41,551 nt of DNA from a virus: the IMG/VR virus record IMGVR_UViG_3300043409_001301, positions 1 through 41,551 of that record; one strand, given 5' to 3'. Positions 1 to 41,551 of this stretch are shown here, one piece after another. Every line of letters begins with the position of its first letter. Position 1 is the stretch's first letter. The translations under genes and the position numbers were made by a program. The notes beneath the pieces were generated by a model. The model was given only the letters and a program-made list of their open reading frames with translations, was not told the origin of the DNA and searched no databases.

Positions 1-175
1 GCGCCGCAGGCGTGCAGCCCAGCAGTTCGTCGGGTGCCATCTTCAGCGCGTCGGCCATGCGGTGCAGCACATCCAGGCGCGGCATCTGGCGGCCTGCTTC
101 AAGGTTCGTGACGCTGGTGCGTTCCAGGCCGCAGGCTTCAGCCAGTGTTGCCTGGGTCATGCGTGCGGCCTTTCG
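1..175. repeat. Left copy of terminal direct repeat (circular overlap)
   Basis: Bases 1-175 match 41377-41551 except at one position: G at 48 versus A at 41424. Such an overlap is expected when a circular or circularly permuted phage genome is assembled, giving a unit of about 41,376 bp. It could instead be a short true terminal repeat. An open reading frame runs through the junction in phase, which favours circular continuity. The mismatch is a missense change in the HTH gene, so population variation is more likely than random error. Confidence 0.9.
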
Positions 176-247
176 CGCGCTTCGGACACGGGCGGCTAAC
201 ATCTCGCTCAAGGCCGACCCATCGCGGCGGGTAGTCTTGTCGTCCAT
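1..247 (-). CDS. XRE-family HTH regulator, 5' part (continues at right edge)
   Basis: The gene starts at ATG 247, with GGAG 7 nt upstream, and runs off the left edge. Across the circular junction it continues at 41376-41201, giving 140 aa in total. Residues 20-76 form a typical XRE/Cro-like helix-turn-helix: M-T-Q-A-T-L-A-E-A, then S-V-T-N-L-E-A-G-R-Q, then a leucine-rich support helix. The product is probably a DNA-binding repressor or activator. The start codon and ribosome binding site lie inside the attC-like site at 194-297. The methyltransferase frame upstream reads into this gene and overlaps it by about 110 nt. The operator is not visible here. Confidence 0.85.
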   Translation of the reverse strand, partial: MDDKTTRRDGSALSEMLAARVRSARKAARMTQATLAEACGLERTSVTNLEAGRQMPRLDVLHRMADALKMAPDELLGCTPAA

Positions 248-1028
248 TGCTGTTCTCCAGTAGCGCCGCGCTGGGCGGCTTAGCTCGAACGTTATGCGTG
301 TTCCTCATGCCACCAGTGAGCATTCGCCAGGCTGTGGCTGCGCACCGGGGCACTTGGCCATTGCCAAGGGCTTTAAGTCTGTCCACCCCAGCGGCCACCC
401 CATCAAGCCTTCGTAGGCCGTAGGGTTCGGGTAGATTGCGCCAGTGACGTTCTGCCCCTTCGACCAAATCCGAAACTGTCGGGCCCGGCTGTCGAACTTG
501 CTGCCGCTGCTGGTGCCCTTGTAGTCCGAGCGCTGCGGCGTAGGCCACCAGCCAGATTCGTTCGCGGCCATGCGGGGCGCCGACATCACCAGCTCCCAGC
601 ACTGTCCATCGGCAGTCATACCCGAGTTCGGCCAAGTCTCCAAGGACTCTTCCGAGTCCTCTAGAAGTGAGCATTGGGCTGTTCTCCACATACGCGAGGC
701 TTGGTCGTACTTCGCCAATGATCCGCGCCATGTGTCCCCACATTCCGCTGCGCTCTCCTTCAATGCCTGCACCTCGGCCGGCTGCACTGATGTCCTGGCA
801 AGGGAAGCCCCCCGAAACCACGTCAACAAGTCCGCGCCAAGGTCGTCCGTCAAAGGTCTGCACGTCATCCCAAATTGGGAAAGGCGCGAGAAGGCCGTCA
901 TTCTGTCGGGCGACAAGAACGCTTGCTGCGTAGGGCTCCCACTCCACGGCGCACACAGTTCGCCAGCCGAGCAAGTGCCCCGCGAGTATTCCGCCACCAG
1001 CGCCTGCGAAAAGAGCCAACTCATTCAT
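138..1028 (-). CDS. DNA (cytosine-5) methyltransferase, read-through C-terminus
   Basis: This 296-aa frame has the C5-methyltransferase motifs in order: FAGAGGG (residues 7-13, AdoMet binding), P-C-Q with catalytic Cys77, E-N-S at 115-117, R-x-R at 155-157, and LGNGQVP at 221-227 (motif X). The recognition region between motifs VIII and X is only about 45 residues, so this is a compact enzyme. It probably methylates phage DNA to evade host restriction. The enzyme proper ends near residue 238. The frame has no stop there: it crosses the attC-like site at 194-297, which encodes N-V-R-A-K, and ends inside the HTH gene. The ATG at 1028 has GGAG only 4 nt upstream; a second ATG at 1024 opens a different long frame. 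Confidence 0.9.
   Translation of the reverse strand: MNELALFAGAGGGILAGHLLGWRTVCAVEWEPYAASVLVARQNDGLLAPFPIWDDVQTFDGRPWRGLVDVVSGGFPCQDISAAGRGAGIEGERSGMWGHMARIIGEVRPSLAYVENSPMLTSRGLGRVLGDLAELGYDCRWTVLGAGDVGAPHGRERIWLVAYAAALGLQGHQQRQQVRQPGPTVSDLVEGAERHWRNLPEPYGLRRLDGVAAGVDRLKALGNGQVPRCAATAWRMLTGGMRNTHNVRAKPPSAALLENSNGRQDYPPRWVGLERDVSRPCPKRAKGRTHDPGNTG
194..297 (+). repeat. attC-like site 1
   Basis: R''-like box GGCTAAC (194-200), L'' GCTCAAGGCCG, then L' CGGCTTAGC and R'-like GTTATGC (291-297); 104 bp. L'' carries extra bases relative to L', as in integron attC sites read on the + strand. The HTH start codon (247) is inside the site. Both outer boxes deviate by one base from RYYYAAC/GTTRRRY. Confidence 0.75.
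305..1024 (-). CDS. Overprinted methyltransferase-associated phage protein
   Basis: A 239-aa frame lies entirely inside the methyltransferase gene on the same strand. It starts at ATG 1024, four bases after the methyltransferase ATG, with GGAG at 8 nt. Its sequence resembles a phage protein family I recall as separate entries: start M-S-W-L-F-S-Q-A-L-V, then F-S-R-L-S-Q-F-G, S-L-A-K-Y-D, W-R-T-A-Q-C-S-L-L, W-P-T-P and L-M-G-W-P-L-G-W-T-D-L-K. Unlike the methyltransferase frame, it stops cleanly at 305, just before the attC core at 291-297. The function is unknown. It may be a true overlapping gene, or a database family created by alternative-frame translation of such methyltransferases. Confidence 0.5.
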   Translation of the reverse strand: MSWLFSQALVAEYSRGTCSAGELCAPWSGSPTQQAFLSPDRMTAFSRLSQFGMTCRPLTDDLGADLLTWFRGASLARTSVQPAEVQALKESAAECGDTWRGSLAKYDQASRMWRTAQCSLLEDSEESLETWPNSGMTADGQCWELVMSAPRMAANESGWWPTPQRSDYKGTSSGSKFDSRARQFRIWSKGQNVTGAIYPNPTAYEGLMGWPLGWTDLKPLAMAKCPGAQPQPGECSLVA

Positions 1029-1395: not shown

Positions 1396-1692
1396 TCAGT
1401 CTCCGGCCACACGCCTAACAGCTAGGTCAAGCTGACCGCCTGCGGCGGCAGCGGCGGCGCTCAGCCAGTCGTGCGCCATCTTCACGGCTTCAACCTGCGC
1501 TTCTTCGCGCGTTGTTGCCTTCAGCACCCTGCTTTCAAACAGCGGGAAGGCGTGTGCCACCCACTTGCCGGGGTGGTGGATGTGGCCGGTCAGCACTACC
1601 AAGCGCATCGGGCCGCACTGCGCCGAAAAGGTGTTTGGCCTGCGGTCGGTTTGGCCTCGGCTGTAGCTTGAAACGTCTTTCCATTCCATCAT
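1396..1692 (-). CDS. Hypothetical cassette protein (98 aa; 131 aa from alternative start)
   Basis: The preferred start is ATG 1692, with GGAG 5 nt upstream, giving M-M-E-W-K-D-V-S-S-Y-S-R-G. The family is familiar to me as a small hypothetical protein of beta-proteobacterial phages: a W-K-D..Y-S-R-G start and a central H-I-H-H-P-G-K-W-V segment. No function is known. An in-frame ATG at 1791 with AGGA upstream lies inside the attC-like site at 1717-1836 and would add a 33-residue leader encoded by that site. The C-terminus (G-Q-L-D-L-A-V-R-R) reads through the half site at 1413-1419. Confidence 0.7.
   Translation of the reverse strand: MMEWKDVSSYSRGQTDRRPNTFSAQCGPMRLVVLTGHIHHPGKWVAHAFPLFESRVLKATTREEAQVEAVKMAHDWLSAAAAAAGGQLDLAVRRVAGD
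1413..1440 (+). repeat. attC half site (R''-L'' only)
   Basis: GCCTAAC at 1413-1419 is followed by a 5-bp spacer and GGTCAAGC, matching the left half of the complete sites. I find no convincing L'/R' partner to its right. It is probably a decayed or truncated site, and the hypothetical gene at 1396-1692 reads through it. Confidence 0.5.
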
Positions 1693-1716: not shown

Positions 1717-1836
1717 GCCTAACCCCTCGCTCGAACCGAGCCCCAAAGGCGGGGCGGGTTCGCGGCTCTCGTGAATGTCTTTGGTGCTCATAAGTTTCCT
1801 CGCGCCTTTGGGTCCGGTTCAGCTCGATCGTTAGCC
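1717..1836 (+). repeat. attC-like site 4
   Basis: R'' GCCTAAC (1717-1723), spacer, L'' GCTCGAACCG, then L' CGGTTCAGC and R'-like GTTAGCC (1830-1836); 120 bp. L'' has the extra C after its third base. The loop contains an AGGA plus ATG (1791) facing left. This is the junction between the conventional early operon and the cassette array: the 32-aa ORF ends on the core TAA at 1833-1831. Confidence 0.85.
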
Positions 1837-1929
1837 GGCATGCGCGTCTCGTTGCGCATACAGCGTTGCCTCCTGTGCAATCAGCCAGTCTATGAACTCG
1901 GCGCAGTCGGGCTTGTCCAGATCACACAT
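1831..1929 (-). CDS. Small ORF at the operon/array junction (32 aa)
   Basis: Frame M-C-D-L-D-K-P-D-C-A-E-F to A-H-A-G, ending on the TAA in the attC core GTTAGCC. The chosen start is ATG 1929, which overlaps the HNH gene's stop by 8 nt, the same geometry as the ninB/HNH overlap. A longer in-frame version (to 2073) would lie inside the HNH gene and looks like a shadow. Function unknown. Confidence 0.45.
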   Translation of the reverse strand: MCDLDKPDCAEFIDWLIAQEATLYAQRDAHAG

Positions 1930-2431
1930 GACGCCACGTCTTTCGTAGAACCACACAAGAGATTGCTTCCGGCGTGACCCCATAGTCAGTGGCAATCTGT
2001 TTGCGCTGTCGAGCATCTGCACGGATGCTTCGCACATCATCGGCGGTAAGTTTTGCGCCATTGACATCTTCACCAGTGCGGATGGTCCCGTGTCGTTTTT
2101 TGTCAGAAGCGTTGCCGTATGCCGTGTCCCATCTCAGGTTTGACAAGGCGTTGTTCTGCTTGTTGCCATCCCAATGGCATGCGTGCATTGTCCTTGGCAT
2201 TGGCGTTACAAATGCAGAAAGAACAAGCCTATGAACAAGGTGCTGGCGGTTCTCAATCTTGACCACAAAATAACCAGTGCTCTTGTGAAGAATCGGGTTC
2301 AAAAATGATTCCTCAATCGCTCTGCTGCTGAACTTGTTCTTCACAACGCGGGACAGGCTTTTTACACGTCCGTGCGTGCTGACCATGTAGTTCGGCGACA
2401 CATGGCACGGCGCCAAAAATTCGTCACTCAT
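1922..2431 (-). CDS. HNH homing-type endonuclease with NUMOD4-like N-terminus
   Basis: A 169-aa protein from ATG 2431, overlapping the ninB stop by 8 nt. The N-terminal C-H-V-S-P-N-Y-M-V-S-T-H-G-R-V-K-S-L-S segment is NUMOD4-like. The HNH-type core includes V-H-R-L-V, C-H-W-D-G-N-K-Q-N-N and L-R-W-D-T. The C-terminal part has a helix-turn-helix-like A-T-D-Y-G-V-T-P-E-A-I-S. Free-standing HNH enzymes of this sort cut cognate DNA and spread by homing. By eye the gene is clearly AT-richer than its neighbours, which suggests recent acquisition. Confidence 0.85.
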   Translation of the reverse strand: MSDEFLAPCHVSPNYMVSTHGRVKSLSRVVKNKFSSRAIEESFLNPILHKSTGYFVVKIENRQHLVHRLVLSAFVTPMPRTMHACHWDGNKQNNALSNLRWDTAYGNASDKKRHGTIRTGEDVNGAKLTADDVRSIRADARQRKQIATDYGVTPEAISCVVLRKTWRHV

Positions 2432-2819
2432 TTGTAAACCGCACGTCATGCTGTTCGCCAAACGCGGCGATCATTTCCATCAAAGATGAAAGCTGTTCTG
2501 TGCTCATGGTGCTTGTGCTTTGTCCCAGCACGACGAATCCACCATCAATGCCAGGCACGGTTTTCTGACGCAACATCGCGGCGGTAAATACCTGCTTCCA
2601 TTCTTCGTCGGTCAACTTGTGACCGTACCAATCAACCTGCCTACTGACTTCGGAAAGCATGGCCCACATGCGCCTGTTCTGCGGGATCGTGCGGCGCTGT
2701 TCTTCCAGCGTCAGACGCACCGGCTGGCCGTCTTCAACGCGGCGGCGTATCCATGCCGCTGCTTTCGCCAGGATGTCGCTGGCTTGCCGCCAGTTGTGGA
2801 GCGTGGCGGTGTGGCTCAT
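2424..2819 (-). CDS. ninB: NinB-like recombination protein
   Basis: 131 aa from ATG 2819 (ATGA overlap with the previous gene). It carries the NinB signature: L-T-L-E-E-Q-R-R-T-I-P-Q-N-R-R-M-W-A-M-L, then D-E-E-W-K-Q-V-F-T-A-A. In lambda, NinB (Orf) helps recombination mediators load on single-stranded DNA. It sits downstream of recT, consistent with a recombination operon. The longer frame starting at 2873 is rejected because the start overlap at 2819 is precise. Confidence 0.88.
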   Translation of the reverse strand: MSHTATLHNWRQASDILAKAAAWIRRRVEDGQPVRLTLEEQRRTIPQNRRMWAMLSEVSRQVDWYGHKLTDEEWKQVFTAAMLRQKTVPGIDGGFVVLGQSTSTMSTEQLSSLMEMIAAFGEQHDVRFTNE

Positions 2820-3112
2820 TTCGGCACCACCAGCCCAGCCTGCGCAAGCGCGTGCACTGTCCACAGCACCCACTCATCAGCCAGGTCGCGCTTCTCTTGC
2901 TTTGTCCGCGTGCTGCCCTGATCGAATTCGCGGTGGCAGTCCGGGCACATCGGAAACGTCCAGACGTCGGGCGCTTTCAGTGCTAGGCCCTTGCCGCGAT
3001 GATTGACGTGGGCGCATTGGCTAGGGCCGTCACGAAAGCAAACCACGCAGGGCAAGCTGGCCACGGCGCGGCGCCACTTCTCGCTGCGGTAGGCGTTTTC
3101 TTTGGGTATCAC
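2816..3112 (-). CDS. HNH-like zinc-binding phage protein
   Basis: 98 aa from GTG 3112, in a GTGA overlap with the recT stop. It has C-V-V-C near residue 22, H-V-N-H-R-G-K-G, and C-P-D-C-H with R-E-F-D-Q-G. This is the zinc-coordinating scaffold of HNH-like proteins that often accompany ninB and recT in lambdoid recombination regions. It may be a structure-specific nuclease or only a DNA-binding protein; the sequence does not settle this. Confidence 0.7.
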   Translation of the reverse strand: MIPKENAYRSEKWRRAVASLPCVVCFRDGPSQCAHVNHRGKGLALKAPDVWTFPMCPDCHREFDQGSTRTKQEKRDLADEWVLWTVHALAQAGLVVPK

Positions 3113-4089
3113 GAGGCTATCCGTTCTTGCTTAATTTTGGCCTGCGCCTCTTGCTCTGCGTGCGCCATTGCTTTGATGGCGGTGCGCAGCGCCGAATGCT
3201 TCTTCAAGATTGACCACAGAGCCAGCTTTTCTTCATTGACCGTCAGACCGCACACTTCGCCATACGCCCCATGTTCATCTCCCTCGTTAAAGCGCTGGAG
3301 AGCTTCGCGGGCCACGGCGCGGACGATCTTGTAACGCTCTGGCGACAAGCCAAGATTGCGCTCTTGCTCCAGCGGGTCGTCGTTGTCGTGCTCAAACGTG
3401 ATGCCTTCACCGGCTTCGGTGTTCAGGTGGTGGACAGCCTTATCAAGCCGGTCAGACTTCGGCCACGTCTTTTGGGCCCGTTTAATTACGGTCTTCTTGA
3501 CCATCTCGCCCTCGTCAGTGACCCATGGGCACGTCTTGCTTTTGTCCTTCTCGTAGGACTTCCAGGCGTCACTACGGGCGCGGATGGCGAACACCTCTTC
3601 GGCGGTCATGGTGCAGGTCAAGTAATCACCGTCGCACGTCTTGACGACGCAGTACACACCCACCATCTCGCCCCGGTCCTTGGCAAACGGGTTGCGCTCA
3701 TGTGTCGGCGGTTGGTCAAAACCGCGCATCGTGAACTTGTCGGACGTATAGACCAGTTCAGCCTGCCCCCAAAGGATCGAGCCTGATTGCACGGCCAGAT
3801 CCAGCAGGCCCATATAGCTGATAACAAGGCAGATCGAGCCCTTGCGCGGGATCAGATACGCCTGCTTCTTGGCCGGGTTCAGGCTGATGCCGATGGCCGA
3901 AATGTTGGTGACGGCATCACGCACGCTCTGCGGGTTTTCGCGGGCGATGCGCAAAGCGTAGTCACTGGCGCACAGTGCTTGGATAGCAAACTCCGCTTCA
4001 CGCGCAAACTCGATACCACGGTCTACGCTGACGGCTGCAAACGTAGGAGCAACCTCCTGCACCAACTTGTCAACAGCAAAGTCGGTCAC
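3109..4089 (-). CDS. recT: RecT-family single-strand annealing protein
   Basis: 326 aa from GTG 4089 (GTGA overlap with the upstream stop). The core matches RecT: a helical N-terminus, [27 protein letters not shown], then [17 protein letters not shown]. RecT proteins anneal complementary single strands and drive exonuclease-coupled recombination. I see no RecE or lambda exonuclease partner in the window, so the partner may be a host enzyme or one of the unknown small proteins. Confidence 0.92.
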
Positions 4090-4280
4090 GGCCACACCGC
4101 CACAAGAAAGCCCACCACCGCCACGCTGGCCAGCACGGCCAGCGGGCACATGATGACGCCGAAGCTTTCGCGCGGGTCGCTGTGCCCCACTTCGGTTGCA
4201 GCGTGCGCGGCTATCGGGTCGTGGAACGCGTCGCCATCGAATGCGGCGGCGGGGTCGTGCGGAAGTCCTGCGGGTGTCAT
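4086..4280 (-). CDS. Small membrane protein (64 aa)
   Basis: Residues 1-38 are hydrophilic. Residues 41-64 form one hydrophobic helix (V-I-M-C-P-L-A-V-L-A-S-V-A-V-V-G-F-L) at the very C-terminus, so it is probably tail-anchored. ATGA overlap with the gene at 4277-4474 and GTGA overlap with recT show a tightly coupled operon. Function unknown. Confidence 0.65.
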   Translation of the reverse strand: MTPAGLPHDPAAAFDGDAFHDPIAAHAATEVGHSDPRESFGVIMCPLAVLASVAVVGFLVAVWP

Positions 4281-4474
4281 GCCAATACTCCTAGCAGTGC
4301 CAGCGCGAAAGCCACGCCGACAATAAAATACATGAGCCGGTCAGCGTCACGGCTCACGGCGTCAACCTCTTCCCGGCTAACGAACTCGAACGCTTCCGCG
4401 TACTCGGCTGGCGTCTGGTCGGTGCGAGGCGCGCGGGTCCACGCGGCTGGCGTGGTCAAGAAGTCCTGCTTCAT
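4277..4474 (-). CDS. Small membrane protein (65 aa)
   Basis: Starts at ATG 4474 in an ATGA overlap with the preceding gene. The N-terminal 45 residues are acidic and soluble. Residues 47-65 (M-Y-F-I-V-G-V-A-F-A-L-A-L-L-G-V-L-A) form a terminal transmembrane helix, as in the next gene. Two adjacent tail-anchored peptides might act together on the host membrane; this is inference. Confidence 0.65.
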   Translation of the reverse strand: MKQDFLTTPAAWTRAPRTDQTPAEYAEAFEFVSREEVDAVSRDADRLMYFIVGVAFALALLGVLA

Positions 4475-4773
4475 GCTGCGTCCATCCACAAGTCGCGCAG
4501 GTACGTTGCGGCCATGCTGCGGACGTCAGCGCTAGGGTGCATCAGACCGGCGACCAACTCGGCTGGCTTTGCAGCGTCGGCCCAGCGCTCGATGCTGTCG
4601 CGGTCGCTGCGGATGTAGGGCAGCGTGACGTTGGCGTGATTGACACAGGCCACGCTCAGCATCTCGCTATAACCGTCCACGTCAGTGTCGCGGCCTGGCT
4701 CATCTTCAGCCTCGACATCGGCCGGAGTCATCAGGCGCTGCCAGTTGCTTGATCCGAGAAGTAGGGTGCTCAT
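4471..4773 (-). CDS. First gene of the leftward early operon (100 aa)
   Basis: ATG 4773 is preceded by AAGGAG at 7 nt, the best ribosome site in this operon. The protein is acidic and soluble, with D-V-E-A-E-D-E-P-G-R-D-T-D-V-D and a helical C-terminal half (S-A-D-V-R-S-M-A-A-T-Y-L-R-D-L-W). The C-terminal half slightly resembles HEAT-like helices. No known family recognised. Confidence 0.65.
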   Translation of the reverse strand: MSTLLLGSSNWQRLMTPADVEAEDEPGRDTDVDGYSEMLSVACVNHANVTLPYIRSDRDSIERWADAAKPAELVAGLMHPSADVRSMAATYLRDLWMDAA

Positions 4774-5686: not shown

Positions 5687-5926
5687 ATGGCCCCGCTGCC
5701 CATAGCACTCGTGCCAGGCCGCTGCCCAGGCTTCCAGCGCTTGAACGGCACCAAGGCCCCGCTGTGCCACACATGCGGCTGCTACACCCTGCGCCGCCCC
5801 GACATCGAGCCCGCCGCCAAGTTTGTTGACGGGCGCTTCGACTGCGTGAACTGGCGAGGGCATAGCGTGACTGTGCACCCATCAGGGGAAACCCGTAAGA
5901 CTGCGAATGTAGGGGGTGCGCTATGA
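5687..5926 (+). CDS. Cys-rich hypothetical protein (79 aa)
   Basis: It directly abuts the previous stop. It has C-P-G-F, C-H-T-C-G-C-Y and D-C-V-N-W, a pattern similar to small Cys-rich proteins common in beta-proteobacterial phages. No catalytic motif is visible. The 3' end overlaps the next start by ATGA. Confidence 0.6.
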   Translation: MAPLPIALVPGRCPGFQRLNGTKAPLCHTCGCYTLRRPDIEPAAKFVDGRFDCVNWRGHSVTVHPSGETRKTANVGGAL

Positions 5927-6090
5927 GGCCCTTCGCACAGACGCGGGACAGAACGCACCAGCAGCCGCAGTCCGGGATCGGCATGGACACGCGCAAAAGC
6001 TGGCTGTGCGGCTGCAAGAGCCACGCGGGCAAGTACCGGGGCGCTGTGCCTTGGAAGTGCTTGGAGTGCGTGGCGAAGGGGGCGAAGTAA
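5923..6090 (+). CDS. Cys-rich hypothetical protein (55 aa)
   Basis: ATG 5923 overlaps the previous stop (ATGA), and its TAA overlaps the replication gene's ATG (TAATG at 6088-6092). Contains W-L-C-G-C-K-S-H-A-G-K-Y-R-G and W-K-C-L-E-C-V, a probable zinc knuckle. It is translationally coupled on both sides. Function unknown. Confidence 0.55.
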   Translation: MRPFAQTRDRTHQQPQSGIGMDTRKSWLCGCKSHAGKYRGAVPWKCLECVAKGAK

Positions 6091-7052
6091 TGGCGCGCAT
6101 TCGGACGATCAAGCCTGAATTCTTCACTTCTGAGGACATCGTGAGCATGTCACCGCTGGCCCGCCTGCTTTACATCAGCACATGGTGCGAAGCTGACAAA
6201 GAGGGCCGACTTCAGTGGAAGCCCAAGACTTTCAAGTTGCGTTATTTCCCGGCTGACAACTGCGACATTGAGAGTCTGTGCGGAGAATTGGTGGCCGCAC
6301 GGCTCGTTGTCCCTTATGGCGACGGCTTTGCGCACATTCCGGGCTTTGCGAAGCATCAGCATGTAAACCCGCGCGAGTCCAAAAGCGTGCTGCCCGTACC
6401 AGACACGCATGTTGAACGAGAGCCGTCGCACATCCCCGCTGATGTCCGCGCATTTGTTATGGCCCGCGATGGCGGTCGGTGCGTTCGCTGCGGATCGGAT
6501 GACCACCCGCAGCTGGATCACATCCTCCCTCAAAGCTGCTTGGGTCCGCATGTAGCCGACAACCTGCGCGTCTTGTGTCGGTCATGCAACGCCGGACGGC
6601 CTGTTTCCGGCTCTGGGCTTGTCGAGGATCTGAAAAAAGACGGCTACACCATCCAACAACTGCGCGTCAGATTTGGAATTGACGCGTCAATTCATGAATT
6701 GACAGACAGGGAGGAAGGGAAGGGAAGGGAAGGGAAGGGAAAGACATCTTCATCAATCCCGCCTGACGGCGGGCAAGAGGTGGTGTCGGAATTTCCACCT
6801 GGGTTTGCCGAGTTCTGGAAAGCCTATCCCCGCAAAGTCGGCAAGGACGCAGCAGCAAAGGCCTTTGCCAAGCGGCGACCGACAACAGCCCTTTTGGCGC
6901 AGATGCTCGAAGCCATCACACGGCAGCGCGACTCTCCGCAGTGGATCCGTGAAGGCGGGCAGTTCATCCCGCACCCGGCGACCTGGATCAACGAGGGCCG
7001 TTGGCAGGACGACACGGCAGACGTACCCGACCGTTTTGCAGGAGCACTCTGA
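6090..7052 (+). CDS. Phage replication initiator (O-like) with embedded HNH domain
   Basis: 320 aa from ATG 6090 (M-A-R-I-R-T-I-K-P-E-F-F). Residues 1-95 are the winged-helix DNA-binding domain typical of phage replication organisers. Residues 120-170 are an HNH nuclease module with C131-x2-C134, L-D-H144, N159 and C163-x2-C166. Residues 236-310 (F-W-K-A-Y-P-R-K-V-G-K-D, then H-P-A-T-W-I-N-E-G-R-W) are the usual C-terminal replisome-loading domain. The helicase gene follows immediately, as in lambda O/P. The HNH insertion is unusual and could nick DNA at the origin. The linker region encodes repeats that may be the origin itself. Confidence 0.85.
   Translation: MARIRTIKPEFFTSEDIVSMSPLARLLYISTWCEADKEGRLQWKPKTFKLRYFPADNCDIESLCGELVAARLVVPYGDGFAHIPGFAKHQHVNPRESKSVLPVPDTHVEREPSHIPADVRAFVMARDGGRCVRCGSDDHPQLDHILPQSCLGPHVADNLRVLCRSCNAGRPVSGSGLVEDLKKDGYTIQQLRVRFGIDASIHELTDREEGKGREGKGKTSSSIPPDGGQEVVSEFPPGFAEFWKAYPRKVGKDAAAKAFAKRRPTTALLAQMLEAITRQRDSPQWIREGGQFIPHPATWINEGRWQDDTADVPDRFAGAL
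6676..6742. other. Candidate replication origin inside the initiator gene
   Basis: An 18-bp perfect palindrome at 6676-6693 (GAATTGAC-GC-GTCAATTC) is followed by a third GAATTGAC at 6696-6703 and then a purine-only tract made of GGGAA repeats to 6742. In lambda the origin iterons lie inside the O gene, between its DNA-binding and protein-interaction domains; this is the same relative location. The assignment is inferred from position and repeats only. Confidence 0.5.
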
Positions 7053-36124: not shown

Positions 36125-36514
36125 ATGGCAGACCTGACTGGATTCGGAAGCGTTGCGGAGCTGGCCGGCAAAGCCATTGACCGCATCTGGCCCGACAAGA
36201 CGGAGCAAGAGAAGGCGCAGCTGGCAGCCGCTGTCACGTTGGTGCAGGGTCAGATGGAGGTCAATAAGGCCGAGGCGGCATCCTCCAGCGTTTTCGTGGC
36301 CGGCTGGCGTCCGTTCATTGGCTGGGTCTGCGGCAGCGCTTGCGCCTGGAACTGGATCGGGTTGCCGGTGACGAAGGCGGGGTTGTTGCTGGCCGGTGGC
36401 CCAGCACTCACGCTGGCGCCTGCCGACCTGACCGAGATGCTGCCCGTCTTGATGGGCATGCTGGGCCTGGGCGCACTGCGCACCACCGAGAAGATCAAAG
36501 GCGTGGCTAGATAA
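36125..36514 (+). CDS. Holin (GTA_holin_3TM-like)
   Basis: 129 aa from ATG 36125. Contains S-S-V-F-V-A-G-W-R-P-F-I-G-W-V-C-G, a second hydrophobic stretch (L-L-L-A-G-G-P-A-L-T-L), and M-G-M-L-G-L-G-A-L-R-T-T-E-K-I-K-G-V, the hallmark end of three-segment holins. It ends the late operon and abuts, stop to stop, the leftward gene at 36515. Confidence 0.85.
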   Translation: MADLTGFGSVAELAGKAIDRIWPDKTEQEKAQLAAAVTLVQGQMEVNKAEAASSSVFVAGWRPFIGWVCGSACAWNWIGLPVTKAGLLLAGGPALTLAPADLTEMLPVLMGMLGLGALRTTEKIKGVAR

Positions 36515-36805
36515 TCACTGCAAAGCCCTTGCCCCCAGTCTGTGCGCCAGCACCCTGGACACCTCGCGCAAGCACTGCTTCATCGTCCCGCAGAATTCCA
36601 CCTCGCCCGTGTCCATGTCGCGCAGCCTGCATGACGTGTACCCCAGGCGCGGCTCAATCTGCCAGTGCTTGCCGCCGTGCGTGCGCAAATCCAGCGGGAT
36701 CACCTCGCGGGTGTCGCAGATAGGCTCGCGGTCAGGTATGCCCATATCGCGTTCGTGGTTGGCGCGGTCTGTGGCGCTTCGCAGGGTGATCTTTGGGAAT
36801 TTCAT
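36515..36805 (-). CDS. Hypothetical protein at end of cassette array (96 aa)
   Basis: ATG 36805 gives M-K-F-P-K-I-T-L-R-S-A-T-D-R. The protein is charged and probably folded (R-L-G-Y-T-S-C-R-L-R-D-M-D-T-G-E-V-E-F), with a helical end. No family recognised. Its stop touches the holin stop at 36514, leaving no intergenic terminator between convergent operons. Confidence 0.6.
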   Translation of the reverse strand: MKFPKITLRSATDRANHERDMGIPDREPICDTREVIPLDLRTHGGKHWQIEPRLGYTSCRLRDMDTGEVEFCGTMKQCLREVSRVLAHRLGARALQ

Positions 36806-36829: not shown

Positions 36830-36973
36830 CTAAAACACGTTGGGCGGCTCGCGGCGGGCCTGCTTTTTCAGCAGCACGATCTTCCAGATGTGCTGCACGA
36901 TGTTCACCACTGCCAGCGCCGTGAAAATCCATACCGCCCAGGTCGGCACCACGATCACGGTGATGCCGCTCAT
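36830..36973 (-). CDS. Single-pass membrane peptide (47 aa)
   Basis: Start ATG 36973 in an ATGA overlap. One hydrophobic helix (T-V-I-V-V-P-T-W-A-V-W-I-F-T-A-L-A-V-V) followed by a basic K-K-Q-A-R-R tail. It reads into the half site at 36839-36845 and ends P-P-N-V-F. Function unknown. Confidence 0.6.
   Translation of the reverse strand: MSGITVIVVPTWAVWIFTALAVVNIVQHIWKIVLLKKQARREPPNVF
36839..36845 (+). repeat. attC half site (R' only)
   Basis: GTTGGGC, a match to GTTRRRY, without a recognisable R''/L'' to its left. It marks the probable outer boundary of the array next to the holin-side gene. Confidence 0.4.
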
Positions 36974-37221
36974 GCCCGGCTCCCGCAGCGCCAGCACCCG
37001 GCCACCTTGCCCCAGGCGCACTCATAGCAGCCGGGCGGGCGCACGCGGCCAGCGTTCGGGCCGCTTGAAATCAGGCGCGCTCGCTGGTCGGTTGTCAGGC
37101 GCGGGGCCATGTCAGCGCGTCCCGGCTCCAGCCGCCCAACTACTCGCTCAAGCAGAGCGTCAACAGCAGGCTGCTGTGTAGGCGCATCGGTGGCGGTGTT
37201 GGCGGATTCAATCTTGCTCAT
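36970..37221 (-). CDS. Cys-containing cassette protein (83 aa)
   Basis: ATG 37221 overlaps the previous stop (ATGA), and an AGGAG lies 8 nt upstream, inside the attC-like site. The N-terminal third is encoded by that site. The end (G-C-Y-E-C-A-W-G-K-V-A-G-C-W-R-C-G) carries two C-x2-C pairs, a zinc-binding candidate. Function unknown. Confidence 0.65.
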   Translation of the reverse strand: MSKIESANTATDAPTQQPAVDALLERVVGRLEPGRADMAPRLTTDQRARLISSGPNAGRVRPPGCYECAWGKVAGCWRCGSRA

Positions 37222-37254
37222 GCTGTTGGCTCCTGCTTAGCTCGAACGTTAGGC
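37134..37254 (+). repeat. attC-like site 6
   Basis: R'' GCCCAAC (37134-37140), 5-bp spacer, L'' GCTCAAGCAG, then L' CTGCTTAGC, 6-bp spacer TCGAAC and R' GTTAGGC (37248-37254). The extra C in L'' is present. The site contains the start of the 83-aa gene and the last codons of the 130-aa gene. Confidence 0.88.
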
Positions 37255-37610
37255 CCCAAGTCCAAAATCACCGTCCTGGGTTGCATCGCTTGGCCGTCTG
37301 CTACTGCTTTCAACAGCGCCATGTATCGCACCTCCAGGCTTTCGCGTTCCTGCCGCAGCGCGGTTCGCATTTCGGCGCGTCCGCGCACGGCCATTTCGTA
37401 CAGGTGCCGCAGGTGGTGAACTTCGTCGGCCAGCACAATCTGTCGGCGGTGCGCGTCGTTCAGGTCGGCGCCCCACGGGCCGTAGCTCTCCACGATCATC
37501 AGGGCGTCGTCCACGCTCTCGCGCTCCACCAGCGGGCCTAACCCCTCGCTCAAGCCAAGCCCCAACAGCGGCGCTGTGGGTTTGTACTCGGGAATCTTGT
37601 CAGTGCTCAT
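37218..37610 (-). CDS. Coiled-coil cassette protein (130 aa)
   Basis: ATG 37610 with GGAG at 7 nt, both inside attC-like site 7. Residues 1-24, including L-G-L-G-L-S-E-G-L-G, are encoded by the site and resemble the alternative leader at 1791. The middle is a coiled coil (E-V-H-H-L-R-H-L-Y-E-M). The end, G-P-N-V-R-A-K-Q-E-P-T-A, is read from the next attC core. Function unknown. Confidence 0.65.
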   Translation of the reverse strand: MSTDKIPEYKPTAPLLGLGLSEGLGPLVERESVDDALMIVESYGPWGADLNDAHRRQIVLADEVHHLRHLYEMAVRGRAEMRTALRQERESLEVRYMALLKAVADGQAMQPRTVILDLGPNVRAKQEPTA

Positions 37611-37654
37611 CGTGTATCTCCGCTGTTGTGTCCGGCTTAGCTCGAACGTTAGGC
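37536..37654 (+). repeat. attC-like site 7
   Basis: R'' GCCTAAC (37536-37542), CCCTC, L'' GCTCAAGCC, long loop, L' GGCTTAGC, TCGAAC, R' GTTAGGC (37648-37654); 119 bp. The loop is similar to that of site 4, including a leftward Shine-Dalgarno and ATG-A-G-C-A-C. Sites 4 and 7 look like copies. Confidence 0.92.
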
Positions 37655-37655
37655 G

Positions 37656-38168
37656 TCATGGATACACCCGCTCGTCACGCTGCGCCTGGTATCGCTCGGC
37701 CGCGTCACTCTCCCTCCGGTCGCGCTGAATGTCGCTCATCTTGTTCCACGCGGCGTCCTTCAACTGTTCGCACACCCGTTCTATCAGCACCGCGCCGATG
37801 TCTGCGCCGTTCAGCCACACCTCGCAAACCTCCAGGCTTGGCGGCTCGTCGGGATAACCAGGGTCGCCGTTGGGCATCGTGTGCATGCCTGGTGATCCGG
37901 GCTCGTACTCCACGCCGATCAGCACATCGCAGTCCATCTCGATGCACGTCACTTCGATGTACTCAAGGTGCTTGTCGCGCGTCGGCTCGTAGCAGGCCAG
38001 GTCGCGGCACAGGTCGCCAATCTGACCGTGCAGGTTTCGGAACGTCCGCTGCTGCACGCTGGCCGGGTCTTCGTCTCCGACCTCGCGGCTTTGCTTCATT
38101 GCGTCGTAATAGGCTTTGTCGCAGAGCCTGGAGGCTCGCGCTTCCCATGCTTGTGCTTTGCTCATCAT
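37656..38168 (-). CDS. Largest unknown cassette protein (170 aa)
   Basis: ATG 38168 with AGGAG at 6 nt; the longer frame to 38225 runs into the attC and is not needed. Sequence is acidic with W-E-A-R-A-S-R-L-C-D-K-A, then Y-I-E-V-T-C-I-E-M-D-C-D and V-C-E-V-W-L-N-G-A-D-I-G-A-V. It stops one base before the R' box region (TGA at 37656). No family recognised. Confidence 0.65.
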   Translation of the reverse strand: MMSKAQAWEARASRLCDKAYYDAMKQSREVGDEDPASVQQRTFRNLHGQIGDLCRDLACYEPTRDKHLEYIEVTCIEMDCDVLIGVEYEPGSPGMHTMPNGDPGYPDEPPSLEVCEVWLNGADIGAVLIERVCEQLKDAAWNKMSDIQRDRRESDAAERYQAQRDERVYP

Positions 38169-38195
38169 CGCTCTCCTGTTGCGGCGCCGCATGAC

Positions 38196-38296
38196 GCCTA
38201 ACTGTCGGTTCAAGCGGAGAGCCAACGGCTATCCGCACCTGTGCGCTTCGTCGGCAGCGTCACGGCCGTTGTCTCCCGCTTAACCTAGCGTTAGGC
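38196..38296 (+). repeat. attC-like site 8
   Basis: R'' GCCTAAC (38196-38202), L'' GTTCAAGCGG, L' CCGCTTAAC, R' GTTAGGC (38290-38296); 101 bp. The stem continues inward (AGA/TCT). Extra C present. The 80-aa gene ends on the core TAA. Confidence 0.9.
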
Positions 38297-38533
38297 CCCA
38301 AGGCCACGCCACAGCGCCCACGCAGCCCAGCCAATGATATTGGCCGCGTATAGCGCCACAGCAGCGGCCAGCCACGGATCAATGCGCCGCTTCGGCTTGG
38401 GCGGCACCGTGCCGCCGTAGGTGCCAGCGTAGAAGCCGAGGTTGATTGCTGGGCCAGCTTCGCGCGGCGGCCTCCGTGGCGCATCGCAGTCTGTGCCGCC
38501 GCAGTTCCATTCGCATCTGTGGTGGGTTGCCAT
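38291..38533 (-). CDS. Small membrane cassette protein (80 aa)
   Basis: ATG 38533 with AGGAG at 7 nt. It begins M-A-T-H-H-R-C-E-W-N-C-G-G and has a Pro/Lys-rich centre. The C-terminal W-L-A-A-A-V-A-L-Y-A-A-N-I-I-G-W-A-A-W-A forms a transmembrane helix. TAA is made by GTTAGGC. Function unknown. Confidence 0.65.
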   Translation of the reverse strand: MATHHRCEWNCGGTDCDAPRRPPREAGPAINLGFYAGTYGGTVPPKPKRRIDPWLAAAVALYAANIIGWAAWALWRGLGA

Positions 38534-38561
38534 CTTCACTCTCCTACTTGGTCACGTTGGG

Positions 38562-38631
38562 GCCTAACACATCGCCCAAGCTGACACGCTACGGCTTCGC
38601 CTCCGCGTGCAGCTTGCCTCGACCGTTAGGC
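38562..38631 (+). repeat. attC-like site 9
   Basis: R'' GCCTAAC (38562-38568), L'' GCCCAAGCTG, L' CAGCTTGCC, R' GTTAGGC (38625-38631); 70 bp. The loop has a smaller stem (CACGC/GCGTG). The 132-aa gene reads through R' and stops in the loop (38589). Confidence 0.85.
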
Positions 38632-38987
38632 TTCTCATCCCGTGGCCCGCGCCACATTGGCGCAAGCCGCAGCGTTTCGGCGCGTCCGCGTTTCGCGCCA
38701 GGCACAGCAAACCCGCTATCCAGCAGCCAGCGCCACACACGTATTACTTGGTGGTCATCTGTGCCGGCTTCGATGATCTTGCGCAGTTCCGAGCGTGTCA
38801 CGTCGGCGCGAGCGTGCAGCGCCTGCATCGATGCGGCAGCGTTTTCGTATGGGCTGCGCGAGCGGTTGCCTTTCTTCCAGGCTGGGAATGTCTCGCTTAT
38901 CGGAAGCCTAACCCTGCGCTCAACGTGAAACACAACGGCGGCTGTGTCTTCACGCTTCGGGTCGGCTTGTAGCGCCGTTGTGTTCAC
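38589..38987 (-). CDS. Cassette protein started from inside an attC (132 aa)
   Basis: GTG 38987 with AGGAG 5 nt upstream; both fall in the R'-L' part of attC-like site 10, and residues 1-27 come from the site itself. The middle is helical (N-A-A-A-S-M-Q-A-L-H-A-R-A-D-V-T-R-S-E-L-R), with W-R-W-L-L-D-S-G-F. The C-terminus is encoded by site 9. Unknown function. Confidence 0.65.
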   Translation of the reverse strand: MNTTALQADPKREDTAAVVFHVERRVRLPISETFPAWKKGNRSRSPYENAAASMQALHARADVTRSELRKIIEAGTDDHQVIRVWRWLLDSGFAVPGAKRGRAETLRLAPMWRGPRDEKPNGRGKLHAEAKP

Positions 38988-39005
38988 GTTAGCTCCTCGT
39001 TAGGC
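38906..39005 (+). repeat. attC-like site 10
   Basis: R'' GCCTAAC (38906-38912), L'' GCTCAACGTGAA, L' TTCACGTTAGC, TCCTC spacer, R' GTTAGGC (38999-39005). The stem is long (ACACAACGGCG pairs as well). The TCCTC spacer is, on the - strand, an AGGAG Shine-Dalgarno for the 132-aa gene. Confidence 0.92.
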
Positions 39006-39013
39006 ATACGCAG

Positions 39014-39020
39014 GTTAGGC
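39014..39020 (+). repeat. Extra GTTAGGC core 15 bp from site 10
   Basis: A second core box lies 9 bp beyond the R' of site 10. It has no partner. The 46-aa gene uses its TAA. It could be a remnant of an imprecise cassette insertion or deletion. Confidence 0.5.
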
Positions 39021-39155
39021 CGGCACTATGGCCCAGCCGAAAAGGTCAGCAGGGCTTCTTGCGCGCCTATAAAGCCAATCAGCAGCCTGCTGCCGTGTTT
39101 CAAACGCGCCAGGACCTATGCAGTATCCGCAATTGATGCTCATGATGACGAACAT
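39015..39155 (-). CDS. Cys-containing peptide (46 aa)
   Basis: ATG 39155, two bases after the previous stop. Frame M-F-V-I-M-S-I-N-C-G-Y-C to R-Q-Q-A-A-D-W-L-Y-R-R-A-R-S and G-W-A-I-V-P-A, ending on the core TAA. The even composition and clean fit between boundaries support coding. Function unknown. Confidence 0.5.
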   Translation of the reverse strand: MFVIMSINCGYCIGPGAFETRQQAADWLYRRARSPADLFGWAIVPA

Positions 39156-39157
39156 GA

Positions 39158-39460
39158 TCAAACCATTCTGCTGGTGACAACCAGCTCAAGAAATTCAAAC
39201 CCGCAGCGCTCGTCGATCCCGATGCCATGCTTCAGCACCTGCTGGCAAACCCAGTCGTGCTGCTTTTCTGCATCGCTCGGGGGCTTGCCTGCAACCAAAA
39301 CGAGGCCAAAAGAAAACGCTTTGCCAACGTTGGCAATCTCGTACCCAATGGCCGTCACCCACTTGCCGCGCGGCTTGCTGGCGTTCTTGCGCGCCGCTGC
39401 TGCCTTGGCCTCGCTCTTGGCTTGCCCGCCCTTTTTGCCCATCTCGCTTGCTGTAACCAT
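39158..39460 (-). CDS. Cassette protein with own promoter (100 aa)
   Basis: ATG 39460 with AGGAG 6 nt upstream and a strong promoter further up. Basic N-terminus (M-G-K-K-G-G-Q-A-K-S-E-A-K-A-A-A-A-R-K) suggests nucleic-acid or membrane binding; the rest is a folded domain (F-S-F-G-L-V-L-V-A-G-K-P-P-S-D-A-E). No family recognised. Confidence 0.7.
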   Translation of the reverse strand: MVTASEMGKKGGQAKSEAKAAAARKNASKPRGKWVTAIGYEIANVGKAFSFGLVLVAGKPPSDAEKQHDWVCQQVLKHGIGIDERCGFEFLELVVTSRMV

Positions 39461-39486
39461 GTTGATCTCCTGTCGTTGGTGTGCGC

Positions 39487-39515
39487 ATATTAGCTAAGCG
39501 CTTGGGTAGTGTCAA
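39487..39515 (-). promoter_or_regulatory. Sigma70-type promoter inside the array
   Basis: Reading leftward: TTGACA (39515-39510), 17-bp spacer, TAATAT (39492-39487). The spacer contains AAGCGCTT, a perfect 8-bp palindrome, a possible operator. It sits 27 bp before the 100-aa gene start and inside one cassette, so this cassette can be expressed independently. Confidence 0.65.
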
Positions 39516-39523
39516 GCGGCAAT

Positions 39524-39607
39524 GCCTAACCATGCGCTCAAGTGGAGCGCTCACAGGTTTCGTCTTTTGTTTGGGCCGCCGCGCGCCCACTTAGCTATCT
39601 GTTAGCC
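39524..39607 (+). repeat. attC-like site 12
   Basis: R'' GCCTAAC (39524-39530), L'' GCTCAAGTGG, L' CCACTTAGC, R'-like GTTAGCC (39601-39607); 84 bp. Extra C present. The 60-aa gene ends on its TAA. Confidence 0.88.
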
Positions 39608-39784
39608 CGCTCTCTCACTTCGGGATCTCTTGCGTGCCAGCTTCTCGGCGTACTCCGTCAGTGCGGGCACATCGTCAGGGTGAACCCAGCGCTTCCACTG
39701 CACGCGGCCTGCGGCAAGCTCGCGGGCTTTGCGGTCGGCTTGGCGCTGGGCTGCGGTCTTTGGCTTCAATGTTTCAGTAGACAT
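39602..39784 (-). CDS. Basic helical protein (60 aa)
   Basis: ATG 39784 gives M-S-T-E-T-L-K-P-K-T-A-A-Q-R-Q-A-D-R-K-A-R, then W-K-R-W-V-H-P-D-D-V-P-A-L. The combination of a charged helix and H-P-D-D-V-P is recurrent in small phage proteins of this host group. May be a DNA-binding ribbon-type regulator. Longer frame to 40102 is rejected as a shadow. Confidence 0.6.
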   Translation of the reverse strand: MSTETLKPKTAAQRQADRKARELAAGRVQWKRWVHPDDVPALTEYAEKLARKRSRSERAG

Positions 39785-39798
39785 TTCGTTGATACATT

Positions 39799-39999
39799 TC
39801 AAGGCAGGATCGAGCGATAAGCGGCGTTCAAGCCTTCCACAATGTCGTCTTGCCCTTTGTCGCCCCAATACGAGATGGCTTCGCTGATCTTGGCGCGCAA
39901 TTCCTTGCGGGCAGCCTTGGCGGCGCGCGCCGTCATCAGGCCCGTGCGCTCTAGCGTCAGGATTGCAGCCTTGGCGGCGATCAGTGCGTTTGCGTCCAT
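39799..39999 (-). CDS. Helical cassette protein (66 aa)
   Basis: ATG 39999 with GGAG at 9 nt. Ala/Arg-rich helices (A-A-K-A-A-I-L-T-L-E-R-T-G-L-M-T-A-R-A-A-K-A-A-R), followed by Y-W-G-D-K-G-Q-D-D-I. Two-gene cassette with the 60-aa gene. Function unknown. Confidence 0.6.
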   Translation of the reverse strand: MDANALIAAKAAILTLERTGLMTARAAKAARKELRAKISEAISYWGDKGQDDIVEGLNAAYRSILP

Positions 40000-40035
40000 G
40001 TTGTTTGCTCCGGGGTTCTGTGTTGCGATGTATGT

Positions 40036-40064
40036 ACTTTAGGGCATCGTGAGCACTCACGCAA
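40036..40064 (-). promoter_or_regulatory. Weak promoter with palindromic spacer
   Basis: Leftward TTGCGT (40064-40059), 17 bp, TAAAGT (40041-40036). The spacer holds GTGAG-CA-CTCAC, a symmetric 12-bp element at 40049-40060. It may drive the 66- and 60-aa genes. The match to consensus is partial. Confidence 0.35.
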
Positions 40065-40106
40065 GAACTATTTGCACTGTTACATTTGCGCGCTTCGGAC
40101 ACAGCG

Positions 40107-40166
40107 GGCTAACACGCAAATCAAGCTGAGCCCGCACGGCGGGCCAGCTTATTTGCAACGTTGGGC
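40107..40166 (+). repeat. attC-like site 13 (compact)
   Basis: R''-like GGCTAAC (40107-40113), L'' AATCAAGCTG, small GC-rich hairpin loop, L' CAGCTTATT, R' GTTGGGC (40160-40166); only 60 bp. Extra C present. The size resembles the short attC sites of classical integron cassettes. Confidence 0.9.
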
Positions 40167-40363
40167 GTCTTGCTGCGGTCCAGCACTCCGCAGGGCCGCG
40201 CCGTCTCTGCCGGGTGGCTGGTCTGCTGTGCACGGTAGTGCTTCGGGTCAGCGGTCCAGCAGTTCACCAGCCACCAGCGGCTCACGCGGCGGCCCAGGTC
40301 GGCGCCGCACACGACGCACGCGCGCTGGCCTTCGGCTTTGAAGTGCAGCGTCACGTCTGTCAT
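40121..40363 (-). CDS. Zinc-finger-like protein (80 aa)
   Basis: ATG 40363 in an ATGA overlap. Motif A-C-V-V-C-G-A-D-L-G near residue 15 with a distal P-C-G. Basic and Trp-rich (R-W-W-L-V-N-C-W-T). It reads through the attC core (P-N-V-A-N-K) and stops in L''. Possibly DNA- or RNA-binding. Confidence 0.6.
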   Translation of the reverse strand: MTDVTLHFKAEGQRACVVCGADLGRRVSRWWLVNCWTADPKHYRAQQTSHPAETARPCGVLDRSKTPNVANKLARRAGSA

Positions 40364-40602
40364 GGCGCAGCCCGAAGCGTTGCCAGCAACAAACGCGCTT
40401 CCTTTTCAGCGTTGCTTGCCTCTGTCATGGCGGCCAAGTGTTCGCGCTCTTCGCGCACGCCGCGATCCGAGAAGTTCTCCTTCGCGTTGTGCGAGGCAAA
40501 CCACGCCTTGGCTTCCTTCTCGCGCGTGTCCAGCACCTTCAGCAGCGCATCCCGCAGACTGTCCACTTGGCAGCGCAACACTTCGGCAGGCAATTCTTTC
40601 AT
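40360..40602 (-). CDS. Coiled-coil protein (80 aa)
   Basis: ATG 40602 (ATGA overlap) with GGAG upstream. M-K-E-L-P-A-E-V-L-R-C-Q, then a long charged helix (R-E-K-E-A-K-A-W-F-A-S) with V-R-E-E-R-E-H-L-A-A-M and E-K-E-A-R-L-L-L-A-T-L. Middle gene of a three-gene cassette. Not assigned. Confidence 0.6.
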   Translation of the reverse strand: MKELPAEVLRCQVDSLRDALLKVLDTREKEAKAWFASHNAKENFSDRGVREEREHLAAMTEASNAEKEARLLLATLRAAP

Positions 40603-40793
40603 GCGGCATCTCCTTCGCGGTACTCGCCACACCAGTCGGCGCGGCCGGTCATTGGCCAGAAACCTTCCGCCTCGCCGTCAGGGCGGGCGGGCGGCATGCG
40701 CTTGCAGTGCCCGGCAACGCTGTTCGTCGGCCGCCACCATAGGCAGCGCAGGCATGCGCGCTTTTGGTCATCTCGCGGGTATTCGGTTTCCAT
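40599..40793 (-). CDS. Cys-rich phage accessory protein (64 aa)
   Basis: ATG 40793 (a GTG one codon earlier is possible). The pattern C-L-R-C-L-W-W, H-C-K-R-M-P-P-A, F-W-P-M-T and D-W-C-G-E-Y recurs in a small phage family with conserved C-x2-C and W-C-G-E elements. It probably binds zinc. First gene of the three-gene cassette. Confidence 0.65.
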   Translation of the reverse strand: METEYPRDDQKRACLRCLWWRPTNSVAGHCKRMPPARPDGEAEGFWPMTGRADWCGEYREGDAA

Positions 40794-40827
40794 CACGCGC
40801 CACCTTTTGTGCCTTCGTTCACCAGCC

Positions 40828-40885
40828 GCCCAACCCCTCGCTCAACTTGACCGCCTACGGCGGCAAGTTAGCTCGAACGTTAGGC
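40828..40885 (+). repeat. attC-like site 14 (compact)
   Basis: R'' GCCCAAC (40828-40834), CCCTC, L'' GCTCAACTTG, CCGCC/GGCGG mini-stem, L' CAAGTTAGC, TCGAAC, R' GTTAGGC (40879-40885); 58 bp. The cleanest compact site in the array. Confidence 0.95.
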
Positions 40886-41169
40886 CGCTGGGCCAGCATG
40901 TCGCAGTCGTTCAGCAGCGCCAGCACCGCCTCAACCGTCAGCCACCTGTCGCCGTTCTTTTGCATGTTCTCCAGCCTCGCCACAAACATGCCGCGCGAAT
41001 CGCGCTCGGACCGCAATGTATTCGCGGCCTCAAGAACTGTCTCGTAGTGCGCGCGGTACATCGGCGCCAGCAAAACCCGCAGCAGGCATAGGCGCGCAGC
41101 AAGCGGCCTAACCCCTTGGTCAACCTGACCCATAGGGGCAGGCGGCACCGTGGCTTCTTCGTGTTTCAT
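40855..41169 (-). CDS. Cassette protein with attC-coded ends (104 aa)
   Basis: ATG 41169 lies in the loop of attC-like site 15, with AGGGG upstream. Residues 1-21 are site-encoded. The central part (Y-E-T-V-L-E-A-A-N-T-L-R-S-E-R-D) is helical. The C-terminal R-P-N-V-R-A-N-L-P-P is encoded by site 14. A later start near M38 is also possible. Function unknown. Confidence 0.55.
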   Translation of the reverse strand: MKHEEATVPPAPMGQVDQGVRPLAARLCLLRVLLAPMYRAHYETVLEAANTLRSERDSRGMFVARLENMQKNGDRWLTVEAVLALLNDCDMLAQRPNVRANLPP

Positions 41170-41206
41170 TAGCTGCCCCTATGGTCAGGTTACCAAGCCG
41201 TTAGCC
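41106..41206 (+). repeat. attC-like site 15 (longest stem)
   Basis: R'' GCCTAAC (41106-41112), L'' GGTCAACC, L' GGTTACC, R'-like GTTAGCC (41200-41206). The stem extends through TGACC..ATAGGGGCAG, more than 20 bp, with two unpaired C on the R'' side. The 104-aa gene starts in the loop, and the HTH gene ends on the core TAA. Confidence 0.93.
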
Positions 41207-41551
41207 GCCGGCCCCATGCCGGCGTTCTTGTTCGCGCAGTTCCTCCAGCGCGCGCTGCGCGATGAGGCCCTGCAGTTCATGCACTCGGTCGGTCATACGG
41301 TGCGCTTCGGCCTGCCAGTGGCTGGCTCGCGGCACGCACGGCACAGCGCAGCTCGACCAGCTGCCGCAGCAAGGCCGCGCCGCAGGCGTGCAGCCCAGCA
41401 GTTCGTCGGGTGCCATCTTCAGCACGTCGGCCATGCGGTGCAGCACATCCAGGCGCGGCATCTGGCGGCCTGCTTCAAGGTTCGTGACGCTGGTGCGTTC
41501 CAGGCCGCAGGCTTCAGCCAGTGTTGCCTGGGTCATGCGTGCGGCCTTTCG
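41201..41551 (-). CDS. XRE-family HTH regulator, 3' part
   Basis: This is the C-terminal portion of the gene that begins at 247. The stop TAA lies in the attC core GTTAGCC. The last 58 residues after the HTH (C-G-S-W-S-S-C-A-V-P and a helical R-M-T-D-R-V-H-E-L-Q-G) form a coiled-coil-like dimerisation tail. In this copy residue 67 is Val; the left copy has Ala. Confidence 0.85.
   Translation of the reverse strand, partial: RKAARMTQATLAEACGLERTSVTNLEAGRQMPRLDVLHRMADVLKMAPDELLGCTPAARPCCGSWSSCAVPCVPRASHWQAEAHRMTDRVHELQGLIAQRALEELREQERRHGAGG
41377..41551. repeat. Right copy of terminal direct repeat
   Basis: This is the second copy of bases 1-175 and differs only at 41424. Joining the two copies restores one 140-codon HTH gene and places the cassette array continuously across the junction. 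Confidence 0.9.

Follow-up and report, generated by a model that had tools for sequence, protein, structure and literature searches.

How does a phage genome come to carry a long row of integron attC sites in which the genes face against their sites, and what moves such cassettes? The question is raised by the IMG/VR virus record IMGVR_UViG_3300043409_001301, a stretch of 41,551 bp that is analysed here over its whole length and is called the window. An earlier reading of its letters alone (the sequence-only reading) had described an array of twelve full attC-like sites and three half sites, with all of the genes between them on the other strand and no integron integrase (IntI). It is very likely that the window holds the intI-less array of a phage-specific, reverse-wired integron system, which is read from the early promoter and is probably moved by an IntI in trans.

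The sites were examined in two ways. An arm-matching scan, which requires the R'' box, two complementary arms and the R' box and notes the position of the extra base, returned 10 sites on the plus strand of the window and 0 on the minus strand. In 60 dinucleotide shuffles of the window the mean was 0.05 sites and the maximum 1, strands combined, and chance similarity was rejected as the source of the sites on these shuffles. A covariance model trained on 38 bacterial attC sites only, without phage sequence, matched 11 of the 12 full sites on the plus strand (E 4.5e-13 to 2.5e-3) and nothing in the window outside 36.8 kb to 1.84 kb, so that the model search proposed by the sequence-only reading recovered the sites. 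The twelfth, at 41106-41206, was not matched by the model; its arms pair 9/9, with an extra base in L''. Where both strands were listed, the plus strand outscored the minus strand by about 20-44 bits, the exception being site 1054-1124, a near-perfect palindrome that is apparently built from one attC arm. The plus-strand polarity claimed earlier stands on the model scores and the extra base, and fails for this palindromic site. The window sites have the R''/L''/L'/R' architecture of attC with the extra L'' base (site 1054 without it), and their arm pairs covary, 6 of 7 L''/L' pairs being altered on both sides. Their R''-L'' sequence, GCCTAACCCCTCGCTCAAGC, is the same as in Rubrivivax integrons; Rfam held no family matching the sites. 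With at least two attC sites and no intI nearby, the array is a cluster of attC sites lacking an integron integrase (CALIN) within a phage, as had been proposed.

In a canonical cassette the gene lies on the attC strand and is read towards R''. The window departs from this: codon scores, the homology of a C5 DNA methyltransferase gene (138-1028, minus strand) and proteins 65-97% identical in other phage arrays bear out that the array genes all lie on the minus strand. For a wider count, a search for the motif TTAGCTCGAACGTTAGGC returned 97 IMG/VR stretches and at least 120 bacterial genome stretches, mostly of Rubrivivax and other Burkholderiales; the loci compared are cited below by L numbers. 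Open reading frames (ORFs) on both strands were scored by a codon model between consecutive same-polarity attC sites of one Burkholderiales type, and the units were de-duplicated within each set. In the three phage sets the gene was opposite to the site in 85, 13 and 32 units and on the same strand in 1, 0 and 2 (130 against 3 in total), whereas 172 bacterial integron units had the gene on the site's strand and 7 had it opposite. The methyltransferases, Lar, RNA ligase, DHH and Mom-like proteins called by homology in phage cassettes are likewise encoded opposite to the site. In the GenBank phage MW202573, a CALIN of Qi et al. (2023), the model-called attC sites are on the minus strand and the annotated genes on the plus strand. 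The phage TJE1 yielded no sites in the arm-matching scan and marginal ones with the covariance model, and its orientation was therefore left out; no covariance-model match was obtained for P12002L or for the initial 50 kb of H101. Inversion is a general feature of phage arrays.

Relatives with their own integrase place this inversion in a complete system. Three records with the motif encode an integron integrase that scores above the curated cut-off, and an alignment of the three IntIs revealed relatives in 289 IMG/VR stretches. Among the best 80 of these 289, which were retained, the layout is near-uniform: the genes read towards intI, beyond which genes are few or absent and are followed, in most cases, by a convergent module. 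Of 115 attC matches of the bacterial model, in 38 loci, 110 are upstream of intI and face away from it. The same relation of attC to intI is seen in the bacterial intI loci of that scan, with the genes mostly divergent. The phage intI loci are thus the usual intI/attI/attC geometry with the genes flipped. Complete integrons, with intI, attI and attC array, are present in L229, L234 and L285, and also in L421, there on its intI (identified by tree position and Pfam) and attC array. L421, a contig of a Burkholderiales genome, runs from cassettes through intI and a phage integrase into host biosynthesis genes and is an integrated prophage; its Dam gene also lies on the strand opposite to attC.

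The attI site of these phages is recognised from breaks in identity. L229 and L239 share 97.2% identity that starts 47 bp ahead of intI and extends across the gene, with no relatedness further upstream, and identity breaks at -56 for L236/L232 and at -52 for L292/L296, relative to intI. The break coincides with the AAC in a YYYAAC box, which corresponds to G^TT on the cassette strand, beside a conserved AATTC element. Among the genes of the window record no tyrosine recombinase or integron integrase was found, in agreement with the sequence-only reading, and the window is not a complete integron in cis. At its left array edge, the attI position in intI-bearing relatives, stands only a half site, GTTGGGC (36839-36845, plus strand); the attI core GAATTCGACC and the conserved AATTC element are absent there, and no attI is recognisable.

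Exchange of cassettes was judged from individual high-identity pairs; histograms of BLAST ends over all arrays are blurred by site-to-site matches and low identity. L035 and L063 share two neighbouring cassettes, A and B, at 99.7% and 99.5% identity and in reverse order. GTTAGCC goes with B and GTTAGGC with A wherever they are located, and the arms left of the junctions are unrelated. Between L056 and L089 one cassette is precisely present (L056) or absent (L089), and one cassette is found behind two different sites. The match of the window cassette at 39601 to L050 and L063 starts at GTT. The junctions at the attI breaks and in the A/B swap fit G^TTRRRY, and the comparisons show base-precise swap and loss of cassettes at this position in phage pairs. 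The cassette proteins of the window are 79-97% identical to genes in the arrays of L061, L080, L050, L422 and the intI-bearing L285, and its virion proteins have almost no relatives in those loci. The proposal that the array is a vehicle for cassette exchange is thereby upheld through turnover in related arrays. The comparison of related phages that had been suggested succeeded in this respect and failed in another, as no closely related backbone with a different array was found: only the last gene of the late operon (78% to L422) and early genes here and there had matches. Searches of INPHARED at the DNA level yielded nothing for the array, for the virion genes or for a single site.

Among the alternatives, the one that survives best ascribes cassette movement to homologous recombination by the phage RecT and NinB proteins between repeated attC sites, which would then be mere homology islands. 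The phage does encode RecT-like and NinB-like proteins, and some neighbouring sites, such as those of L056 and L089, have identical arms. On the other hand, the A/B swap is not easily explained in this way, since only the R' core is shared, the left arms are unrelated and the TTRRRY hexamer moves with the downstream cassette. Unrelated cassettes also join at one base position at attI, and homology needs neither arm covariation nor an extra base. Recombination of this kind is an improbable cause of the pattern.

The position of the codons suggests a second alternative. The stop codon is exactly the TAA complementary to the R' TTA in 44 of the 130 phage cassettes, so that translation ends at the cassette border, and start codons lie at most 45 bp from the next R'' in about 50 of the 130 and inside the next attC in 30. 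The repeats might then serve the early operon at the level of RNA or translation, as ribosome-binding hairpins or weak terminators, instead of acting as recombination sites today. Base-precise exchange, the attI junction, the neighbouring intI genes and the likeness to bacterial attC, extra base included, make this very improbable as the full explanation; as a secondary role it may exist.

The cassette pools bear on the possibility that a phage took an ordinary bacterial array from its host. By protein comparison the phage pool is largely separate from the bacterial one: among 116 non-redundant phage cassette proteins, 69 are related to proteins of other phage loci and 3 to proteins of the bacterial loci, and among 170 bacterial cassette proteins 2 match phage loci, 0 of them at 50% identity. 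Relatives of phage cassette proteins are also present in L156, a contig of an Aquincola metagenome-assembled genome, which may be a phage contig within a bacterial bin. Capture from the host would agree with the attC type, which is that of Burkholderiales chromosomal integrons, but the inverted genes (130 against 3 phage units) and the few shared proteins (3 of 116, and 0 of 170 at 50%) largely refute it and leave it hardly any likelihood. Misbinning of bacterial integrons among the viral contigs, or faulty assembly, is next to impossible, even for records that are metagenome contigs, given terminase genes in 25 of 50 viral IntI records (two families) and in 24 of 50 motif records, tail genes adjoining intI (in L055), a prophage in a bacterial chromosome, the same inversion in the annotated MW202573 and a gene direction opposite to that of bacterial arrays. 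Misbinning and host capture were both rejected on the orientation counts, the L421 prophage and the cassette-protein comparison.

The integrases also form their own lineage. In the IntI tree 59 phage-type sequences (58 viral and that of the L421 prophage) split from 66 others with a support of 98 in the Shimodaira-Hasegawa-like approximate likelihood-ratio test (SH-aLRT); the L243 IntI, frame-broken in translation and on a long branch in the first tree, was excluded from later trees. The L055 IntI finds its closest counterpart among 399 Burkholderiales genomes at about 55% identity (one partial match has 56%), and the annotated phages hold only host-type IntIs, less than 57% identical to the phage type. 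With XerC/XerD as outgroup the root falls among the phage IntIs, with the sampled bacterial IntIs nested inside, a placement that is unsafe because the outgroup branch is very long. The idea that phage integrons are an old separate branch, from which the bacterial integron may descend, is therefore a speculative and rather doubtful one.

According to the reverse-wired reading, each cassette would begin with the TT in one R' box, end with the G in the following one and carry its own attC at its right end, on the plus strand. The gene would be read the opposite way, starting beside or inside its own attC and often ending in the TAA from the left R' box. We infer that the early operon is read from about 5.8 kb leftward through RecT and NinB into the cassettes, and any inserted cassette of the pool would consequently be expressed. 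In the intI-bearing relatives, intI occupies the last place of the operon or one near it, and attI precedes its start codon by about 50 bp; cassettes would enter at attI, that is, at the promoter-distal end. The inversion makes sense because the phage-type IntI stands at this distal end. The Pc promoter of the intI/attI platform would be unusable for phage cassettes, owing to the direction of their genes. The cassettes of the window are most likely moved by an IntI in trans, from a co-infecting phage, a resident phage or the host, as suggested by the cassettes shared with intI-bearing phages.

The inverted wiring may also affect the recombining strand. The attC bottom strand would coincide with the coding (non-template) strand and, provided that replication starts near 5.8 kb, also with the lagging-strand template; both positions should favour its folding and recombination. 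Bottom strands of attC have been shown to recombine more when they lie on the lagging-strand template, an arrangement that chromosomal integrons mostly avoid (Loot et al. 2017, PMC5371416). A phage fork moving with the operon would create the recombination-prone arrangement. The cumulative GC skew of the window, with its minimum at 5,818 and its maximum at 36,399, fits an origin near the divergence of early and late genes, and gene direction alone could give the same skew.

Several points weigh against the reading of the window as part of such a system. The window lacks both intI and a recognisable attI, and 47 of 50 attC-bearing viral records lack a full integron integrase, though many are fragments. 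Polarity is lost in one window site (1054-1124), and some cassette ORFs have weak coding scores. Finally, the L056/L089 deletion joins sites with identical arms, and homologous recombination could explain that single case.

The record ends in a terminal repeat of 175 bp with one mismatch, and the genome is therefore probably circular, of about 41,376 bp. The array had been delimited correctly as to its sites, with the minor correction that it is a single block running over the record ends, from 36839 to 1836. From its left edge, the plus-strand attC sites lie at 37134-37254 and 37536-37654 (whose loops hold the start codons of the genes 36970-37221 and 37218-37610), 38196-38296, 38562-38631, 38906-39005, 39524-39607 (similarity to L050, 92.7%, and L063, 95.9%, starting precisely at the R' GTT, 39601), 40107-40166, 40828-40885 (the top covariance score, 56.8 bits) and 41106-41206. 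Over the junction follow 194-297, whose loop holds the start codon of a helix-turn-helix (HTH)-like gene, the unpolarised 1054-1124, and 1717-1836 at the right array end, whose R' holds the stop codon of the gene 1831-2073. All three half sites reported earlier are present; besides that at 36839, they are GTTAGGC at 39014-39020 and R'' with L'' only (GCCTAAC and L'') at 1413-1452 (plus strand).

The minus-strand cassette genes begin with 36970-37221 and 37218-37610, the second 81-84% identical to genes of L080 and L061. They continue with 37656-38171, 38291-38535 (stop codon in R'), 38589-38987 and 39158-39460, and the two ORFs adjoining site 38562 have weak coding scores. Genes 39602-39784 (stop codon in R') and 39799-39999 are related to the L050 and L422 arrays (94% over 52 aa). 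Next are 40121-40363 (79% to a gene of the intI-bearing phage L285), 40360-40632 and 40599-40796 (87% to L061), and then 40855-41169, with 65% over 68 aa to L081 and a start codon in the loop of site 41106. The HTH-like gene (41201-41536) has its stop codon in the R' of that site and starts at 247, over the circular junction. The methyltransferase gene (138-1028), of which residues 1-244 are the homologous part, has relatives in 19 phage loci; its ORF runs through site 194-297, because R' there is GTTATGC, out of frame, and would add about 50 residues beyond the homologous part. Genes 1118-1312 and 1396-1791 complete the array.

The early operon runs leftward on the minus strand from about 4.8 kb, with RecT-like, DUF968, NinB/Orf and HNH genes (1831-4773) preceding the cassettes, which continue over the record ends to 36.8 kb. 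The convergent plus-strand genes (5916-36514) serve replication, packaging, virion and lysis; the late genes, from about 10 kb to 36.5 kb, include terminase, portal, scaffold, head closure, ejection and endolysin. In the replication initiation ORF 5916-7052 the two ends match initiator families and the part between them (residues 170-228) matches HNH families, possibly through an HNH insertion. Past the array and ahead of the late operon, a small minus-strand gene (36515-36805) is kept in 8 attC-bearing phage loci, with up to 69% identity.

Part of this picture was already known. CALINs in phages have been published, and of six attC sites tested from three virulent phages (TJE1, P12002L and PH101) five recombined with IntI1 (Qi et al. 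2023, PMC9892861). Like those phages, the window has attC clusters without intI and a methyltransferase cassette. The sections of that paper considered here leave the inversion unmentioned, though its own MW202573 shows it; the complete integrons listed in them are from Vibrio, Shewanella and P1 phages, with IntIs less than 57% identical to the phage type. The sedentary chromosomal integrons of Burkholderiales (Rubrivivax type) share the attC arms, polarity, extra base and intI-attI-attC geometry, but their genes sit on the attC strand and mostly diverge from intI, and their IntI lineage and cassette genes differ. In the atypical Treponema integrons intI reads towards attI, with the array beyond it (PMC3607928). 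The phage arrays are unlike these as well: they lie on the start-codon side of intI, upstream of it in the 38 loci, with attC pointing away as usual and the genes flipped. A Treponema-like layout was seen in L303, a 53-kb IMG/VR record with a terminase, where intI reads towards attC sites that lie downstream on the same strand, another route to intI and cassettes in one transcription direction. Subscription papers and preprints aside, a search of the open-access literature gave no account of cassettes inverted in phages or of an IntI lineage belonging to phages.

Integrons have been treated as bacterial and as occasionally acquired by phages. The phages considered here would own an IntI lineage, attI sites, a cassette pool and a wiring of their own. 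Their cassettes include functions of DNA modification and restriction evasion (methyltransferases, Lar-like and Mom-like proteins). Such a system would parallel the bacterial cassette library and account for the modular exchange of early genes by a defined recombinase. The opposite wiring also hints at a reason for the separation of the two pools despite compatible-looking sites, since a cassette that crossed over would lie in antisense to the promoter it meets there. Gene shuffling in phages appears to be run by a system distinct from that of bacteria.

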